Assembly (NCBI GenBank): GCA_947467315.1
Contig: CANIID010000005.1
Coordinates: forward strand, 1 to 46,680
From: Betaproteobacteria bacterium
GTDB taxonomy: Bacteria > Pseudomonadota > Gammaproteobacteria > Burkholderiales > SG8-41
Length of the DNA: 46,680 nt
Reading direction: 5' to 3'
Shown here: piece by piece, positions 12,876 to 28,383 of the stretch
How the letters are laid out: every line of letters begins with the position of its first letter
How positions within the stretch are numbered: position 1 is the first letter of the stretch
Program-made: the position numbers and the translations under genes
The notes under the pieces: model-generated
What the model saw: only the letters and a program-made list of their open reading frames with translations
Databases searched by the model: none
Told to the model about the DNA's origin: nothing

Positions 12876-13862
12876 TCAGTCGCCCAGCTTTACACCCGAT
12901 GATTTGATAAAGCGATCCCACATCGCTACCTGACGCGCAAAGAAATCGCGGAATTCTTCCGGCGTGTTGGGTGGTGCAGCTTCGGTGGCTTCCAGCGCGA
13001 GTTTTTCTTTCATCTCGGGTGAGTTGATGAACTGCACCACCTCGCGGTTGATCGCGCGCACGATGGCGGGCGGCGTACCTGCGGGCGCGTAGAGGCCGTG
13101 CATATTGTCGAGCTGGAAGCCAGGCAGCGTTTCGGCGACGGTCGGCACGTCCGGGAACCCTTGTAGGCGTTTGAGCGTGGTGATCGCCAGCAGTTTTAAT
13201 TTACCCGTGCGCACATGTGGGATGGCGCCGAGGCCGCTAGCGAACAACAGATGAATCTGTCCGCTCATGGCGTCGACGAAGGCCTGACCGGTGCCTTTGT
13301 AGGGCACGTGCACGATGTCGATGCCGCCGGCCATGAACTTGAGCAGTTCCGTGCCGAGATGCGCGATCGACCCCACCCCAGAAGTGCCGTAGCTCAGCGT
13401 GCCGGGCTTGGCGCGCGCCAGGGCGATGAGTTCCTTGATGTTGTTGGCGGGCAAGGAAGGCGGCACGATCACCATCACCGGCACCGTGGTCATCTGCACA
13501 ATCGGCGCAATGACTTTGCGTGTATCGAAGGCGACTTTTTTCATCGGCGTGGCGGTGACGATGAGACTCGCGCCGCCGAACAGCGTGTAGCCGTCGGCGG
13601 GTGCCTGCACCAGCAGCTCGATACCGACGATGCCGTTGCCGCCGGGGCGGTTGTCGACCACGAAGGATCGTCCGAAGCGTTCGGTCAATCGCTGCGCGGC
13701 GGCGCGCGCCATGATGTCGGCGCCGCCGCCGGGCACGGAGCCCACGATGATGCGCACGGGTCTACTGGGGTAGTTGCCCGGCAGTTCGGCGCGAGTTTGT
13801 GCGTAGCTGGCCTGTGCCGCACATACCAGCGCGATGCGTAAAATGTGTGCGGACAATATCAA
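12876..13862 (-). CDS. Bug/TctC family substrate-binding protein; TTG start overlaps the upstream selenoprotein stop
   Basis: YPSRPVRIIVGSVPGGGADIMARAAAQRL, FVVDNRPGGNGIVGIELLVQAPADGYTL. Confidence 0.87.
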   Translation of the reverse strand: MILSAHILRIALVCAAQASYAQTRAELPGNYPSRPVRIIVGSVPGGGADIMARAAAQRLTERFGRSFVVDNRPGGNGIVGIELLVQAPADGYTLFGGASLIVTATPMKKVAFDTRKVIAPIVQMTTVPVMVIVPPSLPANNIKELIALARAKPGTLSYGTSGVGSIAHLGTELLKFMAGGIDIVHVPYKGTGQAFVDAMSGQIHLLFASGLGAIPHVRTGKLKLLAITTLKRLQGFPDVPTVAETLPGFQLDNMHGLYAPAGTPPAIVRAINREVVQFINSPEMKEKLALEATEAAPPNTPEEFRDFFARQVAMWDRFIKSSGVKLGD

Positions 13863-15463
13863 TGCGTTATTTCCACCGTCGCCGAATGCGAATTGCCCGA
13901 CACCGGCAGATACACTGAATGCGTGCCATCGCCGCCAGCCACGAGTAGATTGATGTCTTCGGGCTTTGTGGTGATCGGCAGCATTGTTTCGGGCGTGAGT
14001 TCGCCCAAGTCATCACGCCGCCCGCTTTGCACACGGCCGAAATCTTTTGCCGCGAGGCGTTGCGCTGAAAGCTTTGAGGTTTCCCACAGACGGCGTTTGA
14101 CATCGAGCTTGGACAGGCCTTCGCGCTTTAACAGATGCGCGTGTTCGGGCGAGAGCATCAACCATGGCGCGCCACCATGCACGTAGTCGCTGCTGCAAGG
14201 GAACGCCATGGTGTCGCCGATCACGCGCAGCAAATCGGCCGCGTCCTTGGCATGGGTGTTCATATTCCACGTGCCCAACACACCGGCCACGGTGACGGTG
14301 CTCGCCTCGCGCGCGAAACCGCGCTCGACATGCAGCGGCTCCCACGGATTTTCTGCTTCGTTTTCGGCGCAGCAGAACTGATACTTGCCGGGCTGGCCGT
14401 GGGTGGCTTTATCGAGTTCACCCGGCAAGCCGCCACCGATATTTTGCAGAATCAAACGCAGCCCGCGGCCCAGCGTGGCGTTGGCCCAGTTGCCGGGGCC
14501 GAGGCAATTGCCCGCGCCGTTGATGCCGAGTTTTTGCGCGATGGGACCATTGACGATCAGCCACACGGCGGCGGGATTGGTGGTCGCTTGCAGGCCGCGC
14601 AGGTTGAAGCTCGGCACGGAGACGGCTTTGGCCGCGGCGATCAGCAGCGGCAGATAATCGGGATGGCAGCCTGCCATCACCGCATTAATAGCAATACGCT
14701 CGACGGTGGCGGCGCGAAACGCCGGTGCGATGGAAGCGACCACCGTATCGCGCGCGAGCGTCGTGCCGTGTAGCATGGCTTCCACGCGCTCGGCGGTGGG
14801 CGGAATGATTGGCAGTCCGTCGCTCCAGTGATTGTTGACGAACAACTGATTGAGTTCCATCAGGTCATCCGGCACTTCAATCAACTCGGCGCGTGCGGAC
14901 TGTGGCGTGCGCGCGGACTTCGCGGTGGACGTTCTCGGCTGACAGAGTAGCGTTGCGATGTTGCCTACGCACTCCGCCGCCAGCGTGCGCACCTCATCGC
15001 GAGTGCGGATACCAAACGGATGCGGAATCACCGCGATGGGCAAATCCGCATAGCCCAGCGCCTTGGCCTGCGCGCGGCCCAGACCCTGAAACGCCGTCGA
15101 GCACACGGTGAGCGCGGCGAGGCCGGCTTTGGCGGCTTCAACACTGTCGTGGATACTCCACGACGTGCAGGAGCCTCAGTCACCCGAGCCGGTGATAACT
15201 GCGTCGCATTCCTCGGCGAATTGTTGGAGCACTTCGGGCTTCACCGGCACTTGCCCCGGCTTGCGGTGCTTGCGCACGGCTTTGACGCCGTAGCGGCCGA
15301 TCAGTTGCGCTTCGAGGTCTTCCACCAGAAACTGAAAATTGGGCTTGGCGTTGTCGATGAAGCCGACGGTTTTGCCGCGCAGGTTGTCGAGCGCGCGGCC
15401 GAGTGATGCGGCTTGGGTGTCGGGTGCGGCGGCAGGGTTGTATACCCGTAGCGGATGGGTCAT
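13859..15463 (-). CDS. UGSC-family selenoprotein (Sec at the in-frame TGA 15176-15178) fused to a C-terminal domain paralogous to the product of 20062..21105; 534 aa with readthrough
   Basis: Frame is continuous through a single TGA: MTHPLRVYNPAAAPDTQ...EECDAVITGSGD-[TGA]-GSCTSWSIHDSVEAAKAGLAALTVCSTAFQGLGRAQAKALGYADLPIAVIPHPFGIRTRDEV... ATG at 15463 preceded by AGGAGA. The track splits it into 15176..15748 and 13859..15106. Confidence 0.9.
15141..15168 (-). promoter_or_regulatory. Candidate bacterial SECIS element of the UGSC selenoprotein mRNA
   Basis: After UGA: GGCUCCUGCAC-GUCGUGG-AGUAU-CCACGAC. Perfect 7-bp stem, loop A-G-U-A-U, 18 nt between UGA and loop; stem extendable by GCAC/GUGU across one bulged A. 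Confidence 0.8.
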
Positions 15464-15596
15464 GAAAATCTCCTGAGTGTTCGCGCATGATAAACCTGCC
15501 ACGCAAGCGTTAGAAAGTGTCGCGCAACGATTGATCCGCATCGTGGGTTGCGTGCTGGCATAATACGCAACGCAGTCAAAAAAATCCGAGGAGAAC

Positions 15597-16571
15597 GTGT
15601 TGAAACTGAAGACGTGGATGGTTGCTGGCAGCCTGTTGTTTTGCGCGGGTAATGGTTCGTTGTTATTTGCGCAGGCGTTTCCGTCCAAGCCGCTGCGCAT
15701 GATTTTGCCGTTTCCCCCCGGTGGCCCCACCGATTTGCTCGGACGCACGTTGGGTCAGAAAATGGCCGAGAACATCGGGCATGCGGTGGTGATCGATAAC
15801 CGTCCCGGCGCGGGCGGTAATCTTGGCGTTGAGCTTGCGGCCAAGTCGCCGCCCGACGGTTACACCATGGTGTTGAGTTCGCCGCTGATATCGATCAGCC
15901 CGTCGTTGTATGCCAAGCTCAATTACGATCCGGCGAAGGATCTTGCGCCGATCTCGCTGGCGGCCGCGGTACAGAACGTGATGATCGTGCATCCGTCGGT
16001 GCCAGCGAAAACTTTGAAGGAATTTATCGCCATGGCCAAGGCAAATCCGGGCAAATTTAATTTTGGTTCCGGCGGTTCGGGCACCACCTCGCACCTGGCG
16101 CCGGAGTTGTTGAAGAGCCTCACCAAAATCAACATGGTGCATGTGCCGTTCAAGGGCACGGGGCTCGGCATGATCGGGTTGATGAGCGGACAGGTGGATA
16201 CGATATTTATCGCCGCACCGATTGCCGCGCCGCAGGTGAAAGCGGGCAAGGTGCGCGCGCTTGCGGTGCTCGCCGAAAAGCGCACCGCCGCGTTGCCGAA
16301 CGTGCCGACCACCAAGGAAGCCGGTGTGGACGATTACGTGGTGCCACTGTGGTACGGCATACTCACATCCACCGGAACCGCGCGCGACAACATCGCGAAG
16401 CTCAACGTCGAAATCGCCAAGGCACTCGGCTCGAAAGACGTTGTCGAGAAATTCGCATCGGCAGGCATAGACCCGATGCCGAGCTCGCCGGAACACTTCG
16501 CCAGCTTCATCCGCAGCGAAACCGTGCGCTACGCGAAGGTGATTAAAGACGCCGGTATCAAGCCGGAATAA
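15597..16571 (+). CDS. Bug/TctC family substrate-binding protein (GTG start)
   Basis: FPSKPLRMILPFPPGGPTDLLGRTLGQKM, VVIDNRPGAGGNLGVELAAKSPPDGYTM. Confidence 0.9.
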   Translation: MLKLKTWMVAGSLLFCAGNGSLLFAQAFPSKPLRMILPFPPGGPTDLLGRTLGQKMAENIGHAVVIDNRPGAGGNLGVELAAKSPPDGYTMVLSSPLISISPSLYAKLNYDPAKDLAPISLAAAVQNVMIVHPSVPAKTLKEFIAMAKANPGKFNFGSGGSGTTSHLAPELLKSLTKINMVHVPFKGTGLGMIGLMSGQVDTIFIAAPIAAPQVKAGKVRALAVLAEKRTAALPNVPTTKEAGVDDYVVPLWYGILTSTGTARDNIAKLNVEIAKALGSKDVVEKFASAGIDPMPSSPEHFASFIRSETVRYAKVIKDAGIKPE

Positions 16572-18832: not shown

Positions 18833-20065
18833 CTATAAAATCTTCTTTTCGCGCAACGCCGCAATCTCCGCATCGCTCTTGCCCAGCACCCCACGCAACA
18901 CCACCTCCACATGTTCCCCCACCAGCGGCGGTGGCATGTCATACGCAATCGGTGTGCGTGAAAACTTGATCGGATTCGCCACCAGCGGCACGCTGCCCGC
19001 CTTCGGGTGCGGCACATCGATCTTTATGCCGCGATGCTGCACCTGCGGGTCTGCATACACCTGATCCAAGCGGTTGATCGGGCCGCAGGGCACGCCGACG
19101 GTTTCCAGCAGCGTTACCCATTCGGCGGTAGTCTTCTTTTTTAATTCGGCGGCAACCGACGCGGTGCAGGTGTCGCGGTTTTTGATGCGCAGCGCGTTGC
19201 TGGCGTAGCGCGGGTCGCTGCCTACATCGGGTATGCCCGCTGCCTCGCACAGGCGCTGGAACTGGCCGTCGTTGCCGGTGGCGATGATGATGTCGCCGTC
19301 TTGGGTGCGAAAGGTTTGATACGGCATCACGTTCGGATGCGCATTGCCCATGCGCGTCGGCACCTCGCCGCCGATCAGGTAATTGGCGTTCTGATTGGCG
19401 AGCCAGGCTACGGTGGAATCGAGCAGTGCCATGTCGATGTGCTGGCCTTTGCCGCTGGTATGGCGTTCGTGCAGCGCGGAGACGATGCCCACGGTGGAAT
19501 ACATGCCGGTCATCAAATCCGCAATCGCAACGCCGACTTTCTGCGGGCCGCCGCCCGGCAGATCGTCGCGCTCGCCGGTGATGCTCATTACGCCGGCCAT
19601 GCCCTGAATCATGAAGTCGTATCCCGCACGGTCGCGATAGGGCCCGGTCTGGCCGAAGCCGGTGATCGAGCAATAGACCAAACGAGGATTTAGCACCGAT
19701 AACGAATCGTAATCGAGGCCGTAGCGCTTCAAGTCGCCGACTTTGTAATTCTCCAGCAGCACATCGGATTTTTGCGCCAGCTCGCGGATGATCTGCTGGC
19801 CTTCGGGCTTGGCGATGTCGAGGGTGAGCGATTGTTTGCCGCGATTCGCGCACATGAAATACGCGGCGTCACTGGTGTCGTTGCCGTCGCGATCTTTGAC
19901 GAACGGTGGACCCCAGGCGCGGGTGTCGTCGCCCTTGCCGGGGCGTTCGATCTTGATCACTTCGGCGCCGAGGTCGGCAAGTAACTGGCCGACCCACGGG
20001 CCGGCGAGGATGCGGCTCATGTCGAGGACGCGGATGCCCGCGAGGGGGCCTGAGCGGCTTGTCAT
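18833..20065 (-). CDS. CaiB/BaiF family CoA-transferase
   Basis: GPLAGIRVLDMSRILAGPWVGQLLADLGAEVIKIERPGKGDDTR, ITGFGQTGPYRDRAGYDFMIQGMAG. Confidence 0.93.
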   Translation of the reverse strand: MTSRSGPLAGIRVLDMSRILAGPWVGQLLADLGAEVIKIERPGKGDDTRAWGPPFVKDRDGNDTSDAAYFMCANRGKQSLTLDIAKPEGQQIIRELAQKSDVLLENYKVGDLKRYGLDYDSLSVLNPRLVYCSITGFGQTGPYRDRAGYDFMIQGMAGVMSITGERDDLPGGGPQKVGVAIADLMTGMYSTVGIVSALHERHTSGKGQHIDMALLDSTVAWLANQNANYLIGGEVPTRMGNAHPNVMPYQTFRTQDGDIIIATGNDGQFQRLCEAAGIPDVGSDPRYASNALRIKNRDTCTASVAAELKKKTTAEWVTLLETVGVPCGPINRLDQVYADPQVQHRGIKIDVPHPKAGSVPLVANPIKFSRTPIAYDMPPPLVGEHVEVVLRGVLGKSDAEIAALREKKIL

Positions 20066-21105
20066 TGGCGTATCTTGATTTCGCGGCTAATCGCCTTGGT
20101 GGTTCCGCCCCAAGTCGGCAGGTAAGCGGCCTTACGCCCCACGCCGCCGGCCACCACGATCATCAAATCATCTGCTTTCTCGGCAACACGGATGACTTTC
20201 GCCGAGGGATCGGACGCTGCCGCCATGCGATGTTTGCGCTGCGCAGGCGCGAGCTTCTCGACCGGCAGTACGGCTTGTTCCCAGATCATCTGTTTGGTCT
20301 GTTGCTTGGTAAAACCGTCGCGATGAAACATTGCCGCCCACTCGGGCGGGAACAAACACAGCGGCTCGCCGCCGCCGAGCAATCCCGCGCCGCCGGAGAT
20401 GCCGGCCATCAACATGGATTGCGCGAAGGTCTGTGCAAGGCCCGTCGCGTCCTGACTGTCGGAGTCGTTGACTTCACCGGTTCCGGAGATGCCGACCGCG
20501 GTGACGACACTCGCGTCTTTTGAAAAACCGCGCTCCACGTGCAGTGGCGCCCACGGGCTTTCGTCGATGTTCTCGGCGAAGCAGCACGCGTATTTGGCGG
20601 GCTGGCCGAGTGTCGCCATGTCTGTTTCGCCGGGAATCGCGCCGCCGATGTTTTGCAGAATCAGCGTCATCGCACGGCCGATGGTGGCGTTGGCGCGGTT
20701 GCCCGAGCCCAGCGCGTTGTTTTTTCCGTTAAGCCCGAGTTGTTCAACGATGGGACCGTTGACGATGTACATCGGCGCGGCGGAACCGGTGGTGGTGCCG
20801 ATACCCACCAAATTGAAACTCATGTCGGACAATGCATCAACCGCAGCGATCAGCACCGGCAGGTACTCCGCTTTGCATCCGGCCATCACCGCGCAGATGG
20901 CGATGTCACCGGCGGTGGCTGTCTCGAAGCCCGGCGGCAGCATGCTGATTTCTTCGTCAGCGGCGTAGTTATTCGCCGCCAACATCGCTGCCACGCGCTG
21001 CATCGTTGGCGGCACCAGCGGCAGACCATCGCTTAGATAAGCGGCTGCGAGTTCCGCTTGCACGCGTTCATACGCAGCGTCGTGTGCGCCTTCCCATGGC
21101 TTCAT
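20062..21105 (-). CDS. Uncharacterised protein paralogous to the C-terminal domain of the UGSC selenoprotein; no UGSC module
   Basis: SDGLPLVPPTMQRVAAML, AICAVMAGCKAEYLPVLIAA, IVNGPIVEQLGLNGKNNALGSGNRANATIGRAMTLILQNIGGAIPGETDMATLGQPAKYACCFAENIDESPWAPLHVERGF align closely with 13859..15106. Confidence 0.8.
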   Translation of the reverse strand: MKPWEGAHDAAYERVQAELAAAYLSDGLPLVPPTMQRVAAMLAANNYAADEEISMLPPGFETATAGDIAICAVMAGCKAEYLPVLIAAVDALSDMSFNLVGIGTTTGSAAPMYIVNGPIVEQLGLNGKNNALGSGNRANATIGRAMTLILQNIGGAIPGETDMATLGQPAKYACCFAENIDESPWAPLHVERGFSKDASVVTAVGISGTGEVNDSDSQDATGLAQTFAQSMLMAGISGGAGLLGGGEPLCLFPPEWAAMFHRDGFTKQQTKQMIWEQAVLPVEKLAPAQRKHRMAAASDPSAKVIRVAEKADDLMIVVAGGVGRKAAYLPTWGGTTKAISREIKIRQ

Positions 21106-27674: not shown

Positions 27675-27756
27675 GTAGGTCGGAACGCGTAGCGGTTCCG
27701 TCACCCTTGTTGTCACACCGCGACCGCCTGTCGGAATCGCTGCGCGTTCCGACCTA
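27675..27756. repeat. Inverted pair of REP-like units between convergent genes; the right arm contains the stop codon of the AhpD-like selenoprotein gene
   Basis: GTAGGTCGGAACGCGTAGCGGTTCCGTC ... TCGGAATCGCTGCGCGTTCCGACCTAC; TAG stop at complement(27754..27756). Confidence 0.75.
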
Positions 27757-28383
27757 CTGCTGGCAAATGCGGCAGGCGTAATCCACCAGCGCCTGGGCGG
27801 TCACGCCGACGGCCTTGTGCTGCCGGCGGTTGTATTCTTCCGGCTCAAGCTCGGTACGGAAGGAGTCGTTCAGCCGGTTGATCATGTTGAACAGACCGCA
27901 CATCATTGATACTTCCACAATTTCAGCGTCGTTGCAGTGTTTGCGTAGCTCGTTCCATGCGCCATCATCAAACTTGGCGGTGTTGAGTGTCATGGCTTCC
28001 GACCATGCCATCACGGCTTTTTCTTTGTCGGAAAACAGCGGGCTGGCGAGATAATCTTTCGCTTGCAGCGCGTCGAATTCCGCGTCGGTTAATCCCAGTG
28101 CTTGACCAAGCACTCGATTGTGTTGTGTTCAATAATTGCAGTTATTGACGGTGGAGGTTTTCAGGCACGACAGGTTGCGCAGGCGTACGTCGGACACGGC
28201 GCCCGCCGTGGGTTGGCGCACTGCGGCCACCAGCGGCAGAAACCAGCGCGCAACCATGGGACTGTGCGACAAAATGCGTTGCAGATTGGCGGTACGGCCC
28301 AGCATGATGTTGCTGGCGTCGAACAGGTCTTTGGTGGGGCCGGTGGCTTCAGAGTCGGTGATGCCGCGCAGGCGTTGGGTCAT
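27754..28383 (-). CDS. AhpD/carboxymuconolactone decarboxylase-like selenoprotein with CxxU motif (Sec at the in-frame TGA 28129-28131); 209 aa with readthrough
   Basis: Frame is continuous through a single TGA: MTQRLRGITDSEATGPTKDLFDASNIMLGRTANLQRILSHSP...VSDVRLRNLSCLKTSTVNNCNY-[TGA]-TQHNRVLGQALGLTDAEFDALQ... AhpD-like homologues have CxxC followed by H at this site. The track splits it into 28129..28383 and 27754..28113. Confidence 0.9.
28097..28114 (-). promoter_or_regulatory. Candidate bacterial SECIS element of the AhpD-like selenoprotein mRNA
   Basis: After UGA: ACACAACACAAUCG-AGUGCUU-GGUC-AAGCACU. Perfect 7-bp stem, GGUC loop, 21 nt between UGA and loop. Confidence 0.8.

Follow-up and report, generated by a model that had tools for sequence, protein, structure and literature searches.

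A probable AhpD-like selenoprotein with a CxxU centre and a conserved C-terminal cysteine pair in uncultivated Burkholderiales

Results

Within the window (the whole stretch of 46,680 nucleotides analysed here) lies a minus-strand gene of 209 codons whose frame is interrupted once, by a TGA at codon 85 (Table 1). The preliminary description of this DNA had taken two open reading frames to be a single frame split by that TGA. Indeed this is what we found, and the coordinates given were correct; the strand, omitted there, is the minus strand. With the TGA read as selenocysteine (Sec), the 209-residue product carries the redox-centre motif TSTVNNC82NYU85TQH88N89RVLG.

Table 1. Positions of the selenoprotein gene and its features, of UGSC-related genes in the window and of the Sec machinery in the same genome.
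Feature	Position	Strand	Basis or remark
AhpD-like selenoprotein gene, 209 codons + TAG	27754..28383 (start ATG 28383, stop TAG 27756..27754)	-	single frame with single TGA, orthologues, fold model
In-frame TGA, codon 85, U of C82-N-Y-U85	28129..28131	-	TGA in 47/47 distinct orthologues
C82, proposed resolving cysteine of CxxU centre	28138..28140	-	Cys in 47/47
H88-N89; N89 at place of AhpD catalytic His	28117..28122	-	H88 47/47, N89 47/47
C204-R-I-C207 C-terminal tail, proposed second redox pair	27763..27774	-	both Cys 47/47
SECIS-type hairpin GUGCUU-GGUC-AAGCAC	28098..28113	-	conservation, synonymous diversity, covariation
UGSC-family selenoprotein gene	15748..13859	-	
Stand-alone protein resembling UGSC fusion C-terminal domain	21105..20062	-	
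selA	C201:6420-7766		directly precedes selB
selB	C201:7839-9728		directly follows selA
tRNA-Sec	C230:973-1063		above cut-off
selD (L109)	G000:C106:8033-8959		one in-frame TGA

Elsewhere in the window, a UGSC-family selenoprotein gene, presumably the first selenoprotein of the preliminary description, has an in-frame TGA within the motif VITGSGD-U-GSCTSW. Its UGSC domain, which scores 154 bits against Pfam UGSC (above the cut-off) and 115 against NCBIfam UGSC_fam (cut-off 125), is fused to a C-terminal domain of ~350 residues. The stand-alone protein that resembles this C-terminal domain, as judged from motifs by eye, had no Pfam or NCBIfam match.

We searched 149 related genomes and the GTDB collection for orthologues of the AhpD-like gene. 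This returned orthologues at 67-94% identity, mostly from the same taxonomic family; upon codon-by-codon extraction, 65 matches yielded 47 distinct coding sequences (67-100% identical). Codon 85 is TGA in every one of these and encodes Cys in none, and 46 of them contain no further stop, the remaining one having an extra TAG. Resequencing had been proposed as a check on the TGA; its recurrence in all 47 sequences, which come from independent assemblies, stands in for that. In a second Burkholderiales family, an orthologue (G579, L117) shares TGA, hairpin and tail, and all three are likewise present in L066, from a record titled Rokubacteria. A survey of 369 genomes from across the class yielded no further orthologue, just a more distant Cys protein (L113). 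Two sequences may represent broken copies or assembly errors: L024, with its extra TAG at codon 129, and L092, which lacks ~60 codons immediately beyond the TGA region. Five further records (L052, L053, L057, L059 and L068) are titled Bordetella parapertussis or Chitinophaga pinensis, titles that do not fit their sequences; they group with uncultivated Betaproteobacteria MAGs and the titles are probably placeholder labels.

Mean residue identity across the 47 sequences is nearly the same on the two sides of the TGA (0.78 vs 0.77), and for 11 near-group sequences we obtained dN/dS values of 0.125 for the stretch ahead of the TGA and 0.059 for that beyond the SECIS codons, indicating purifying selection on both. 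Therefore, the downstream half appears to be translated and constrained and, judged from these substitution patterns, selection on it is strongly purifying. The random stops and frameshifts among homologues that would accompany decay, for which the preliminary description had suggested looking, were not seen.

The same genome encodes selA (583 bits), selB (447), selD (423) and tRNA-Sec (74.5), each scoring above its family cut-off, so that the genome search for Sec machinery suggested earlier gave a complete set. Given its in-frame TGA, SelD of this genome is probably a selenoprotein itself. Within the taxonomic family, the AhpD-like gene occurs in 44 of the 68 genomes with selA and in one of the six without it (Fisher p 0.03), this lone genome being represented by an assembly that is 84% complete.

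Downstream of the UGA we found a hairpin that begins 15 bases past it and places its apical loop 21 bases past it. The loop is small and contains a G, as in bacterial SECIS elements. The stem-loop is identical in 45 of the 47 orthologues and the other two retain every pair, one of them through a double change from U-A to C-G. Synonymous diversity at codons 91-95 (GTG CTT GGT CAA GCA) is 0-0.04, the average for the gene being 0.44, and when 8-codon windows of the gene are ranked by this measure, the bottom twelve all fall at codons 83-101. In selenoprotein paralogues of group B (described below), the GGUC loop is mostly kept and the stems are altered; once these sequences are added, three of the six pairs show compensatory changes and 98.7% of cells are paired. 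This covariation score was matched by none of 500 shuffles, and slid registers of the stem, which pair at 17-49%, were never as good. Folding energy alone did not distinguish the hairpin: of the synonymous recodings, 78% folded equally or more stably, and 3% preserved all six stem pairs. The case for a SECIS therefore rests on synonymous-site freezing and covariation. A search of Rfam with the hairpin matched no family. By its placement after the UGA, as is usual in bacteria, the conserved hairpin is a putative SECIS-type element.

A structure model built from 25 sequences predicted an all-helical, AhpD-type fold (mean pLDDT 91.6, pTM 0.86). Its best match in the PDB was AhpD of D. radiodurans (6k40, TM 0.74-0.82), and the best solved structures also included 3c1l, Bmp8 (6ohi), 2pfx, 2gmy and PA0269, the last superposing on the model at 1.9 A rmsd. 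For 6k40, 3c1l, 2gmy and 2o4d, TM values ranged from 0.6 to 0.87, with E values down to 1.7e-6. A sequence-profile search of the PDB recovered the same structures as the fold search. The protein missed the Pfam CMD gathering score (18.2 bits vs 23) as well as the NCBIfam cut-offs of TIGR01926 (peroxidase-related enzyme; 59.2 bits vs 81.8), NF053654 (61.3 vs 310) and NF041238 (37 vs 175); its paralogues, too, score far below the equivalog cut-offs of related NCBIfam (seleno)protein families. On the strength of the fold and the PDB profile searches, we nevertheless assign it to the AhpD-like/CMD superfamily despite the sub-threshold Pfam score.

Alignment to AhpD-like proteins confirmed that the TGA replaces the second redox Cys, giving the CxxU pair C82-N-Y-U85 in the place of CxxC. 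In PA0269 the proton relay consists of Glu36, Cys48, Tyr50, Cys51 and His55, of which Cys48, Cys51 and His55 are invariant in the structures compared (PMC3141380). These five residues align with N70, C82, Y84, U85 and N89, so that two of the five are substituted: Asn stands both at the position of the relay Glu, 12 residues before the first Cys, and at that of the distal His, four after the second. N89 is encoded by AAT in 26 orthologues and AAC in 21. The expectation that a His follows the redox centre thus held in part, as the invariant H88 lies at +3, one position ahead of the classical +4 site, where Asn is found instead. With N70 and N89 in these positions, classical AhpD chemistry cannot be assumed.

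In the same alignment, the relay Glu and His are retained in the Cys homologues L113, L120, L140 and L143. Asn at the relay-His position also occurs in a Cys family (L137, L142), and the Sec paralogue L139 has Thr. Since this Asn-bearing Cys group exists, there is no strict link between relay loss and Sec, and both observations weaken the idea that Sec caused the loss of the relay His.

The two Cys residues of the C-terminal tail are as invariant as the redox centre. The tail is absent both from group A paralogues (a 209-residue class with the motif CxYUIKHN) and from those of group B, which have ~460 residues and combine a CxxU domain with a second AhpD domain lacking either redox residue. 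An invariant second Cys pair in addition to a CxxU centre suggests an internal redox relay, as far as conservation can indicate; the tail could bind metal instead of carrying electrons. Two-domain proteins of this kind (L082, L083, L090, L098, L101 and L102), in which A/S..M/S/L/T replaces C..U in the second AhpD domain, recall an active/inactive pair. In genome G052, L083 650-6165 has four apparent selenoprotein genes inside ~6 kb, namely a two-domain AhpD fusion, an orthologue of the gene described here, a PrdB/GrdB-like protein with the motif PIUPNCT (by eye) and a group A AhpD.

Discussion

The CxxU principle in AhpD-like proteins is not new. Descriptions of such selenoproteins date from 2005 and 2008 (PMC1088965, PMC2398784), and a TIGR01926 CxxU entry appears in a 2026 review (PMC13188914), which agrees with the earlier statement that they form a known class. 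AhpD-like 1 and 2 from marine metagenomes are likewise AhpD-related, with CxxU and a SECIS-type hairpin right after the UGA (PMC1088965, PMC2398784). However, these had 902 and 207 Cys homologues in the same data (PMC2398784), whereas no Cys orthologue was found for the present subfamily, and among the sequences compared here the C-terminal CRxC tail was confined to this subfamily. NF053654 'YciW-related (seleno)protein' and NF041238 'AhpD_rel_CFYUT' are among the best family matches and are described as (seleno)proteins, matching over the same redox-centre region, but the 179-position NF053654 model covers our protein just to residue 176, short of the tail. PA0269, Atu0492 and D. radiodurans AhpD (2o4d, 2ijc, 2gmy, 6k40) share the fold and are CxxC peroxidase-related enzymes; in PA0269, C48-x-Y50-C51 occupies the place of C82-x-Y84-U85, with Cys where Sec is found here, and the matches to all three proteins stop ahead of the tail. 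Bmp8 debrominase (6ohi, 6ohj) also has the AhpD fold, and its redox centre, built from Cys, lies in the corresponding region; this Cys enzyme has brominated pyrroles as substrates and is 17% identical over the fold, and 6ohj is its tribromopyrrole complex. As far as we have checked, what is new is a Sec-only subfamily, mainly from one Burkholderiales family and below every NCBIfam cut-off, in which Asn replaces both the relay Glu and the distal His and whose C-terminus carries an invariant CRxC tail that its relatives lack.

We consider it highly probable that the gene encodes one AhpD-like selenoprotein, with a catalytic cycle that we propose as follows. At UGA codon 85 the ribosome would insert selenocysteine, directed by the downstream hairpin, which SelB carrying Sec-tRNA(Sec) would recognise. 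In the folded, all-helical product, the Sec selenolate may attack an electrophile, either a peroxide (organic hydroperoxide or other) or a different reducible group, and C82 would resolve the selenenyl intermediate to a selenylsulfide. This could be reduced through C204-x-x-C207, with a donor of the thioredoxin or dihydrolipoamide type recharging that pair in turn. Most likely, then, the protein would act as a peroxidase or reductase of the selenol/thiol type. A search of the gene neighbourhood found no reducing partner adjoining the gene. Within the genus, a CBS-domain protein is kept divergently upstream, with a CoA-transferase and TctC on the opposite side in several genomes; in other genera the neighbours differ, and the pathway therefore cannot be named.

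The standard code gives a broken frame, and a true stop followed by a decaying or misread half might explain this, the more so as L024 has a second stop and L092 is shortened. Such a pseudogene or assembly error is, however, hardly conceivable, and we rejected it, given a TGA that no other codon replaces across many independent assemblies, a downstream dN/dS of ~0.06 and a frozen hairpin. It is also very improbable that suppression or reassignment of the TGA leads to another amino acid, such as Trp or Cys, in place of Sec. Sequence alone cannot reveal the inserted residue, but other genes in the window stop at TGA normally (table 11) with domain lengths intact, the genome has the full Sec machinery, codon 85 aligns with the AhpD redox Cys and the hairpin is placed as in bacterial SECIS elements.

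The alternatives that concern function carry more weight. A selenoenzyme of the same fold could be a selenol-based reductive dehalogenase or another reductase and not a peroxidase. Bmp8 (6ohi, 6ohj) is among the nearest structures (41.7 bits by sequence, fold TM 0.72-0.80), the loss of AhpD relay residues fits a different chemistry, and the genes nearby, both in the window and in relatives, have a catabolic look (CoA-transferases, TctC receptors, dehydrogenases). Yet outside the genus this gene set changes, no halogen-specific genes were recognised in it, and 6k40 and other peroxidase-annotated structures match as well or better, so we think this reading rather unlikely. Possible, if still on the doubtful side, is a redox adaptor with no substrate of its own, passing electrons to a peroxiredoxin and using the C-terminal CxxC as its partner contact. 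M. tuberculosis AhpD, the adaptor of AhpC, offers a precedent (PMC3141380), and a CxxC tail suits a shuttle; against this, the neighbourhood held no peroxiredoxin gene beside the selenoprotein gene, and the presence of Sec suggests that the protein itself carries out a demanding chemical step.

Returning to the selenoenzyme with a CxxU/tail cycle, we tentatively suggest a further idea, which we hold with less than even confidence. A selenol needs no deprotonation of the Glu-His type. In a Sec-obligate AhpD branch, selenium might thus have made the Glu-His relay dispensable, with the CxxC arm regenerating the CxxU centre and with a substrate that is possibly not a peroxide. Such an arm would resemble the mobile redox tail that is a feature of thioredoxin reductase.

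Conclusion

To conclude, this subfamily, for which no Cys orthologue was found, in which two acid/base residues of the Cys enzymes are gone and which has a second Cys pair at its tail, offers a clean test case for the retention of Sec. Automated gene prediction and curated family models will probably split the gene or overlook it, so that databases may give no sight of a selenoenzyme that is conserved in an uncultivated group of Burkholderiales.
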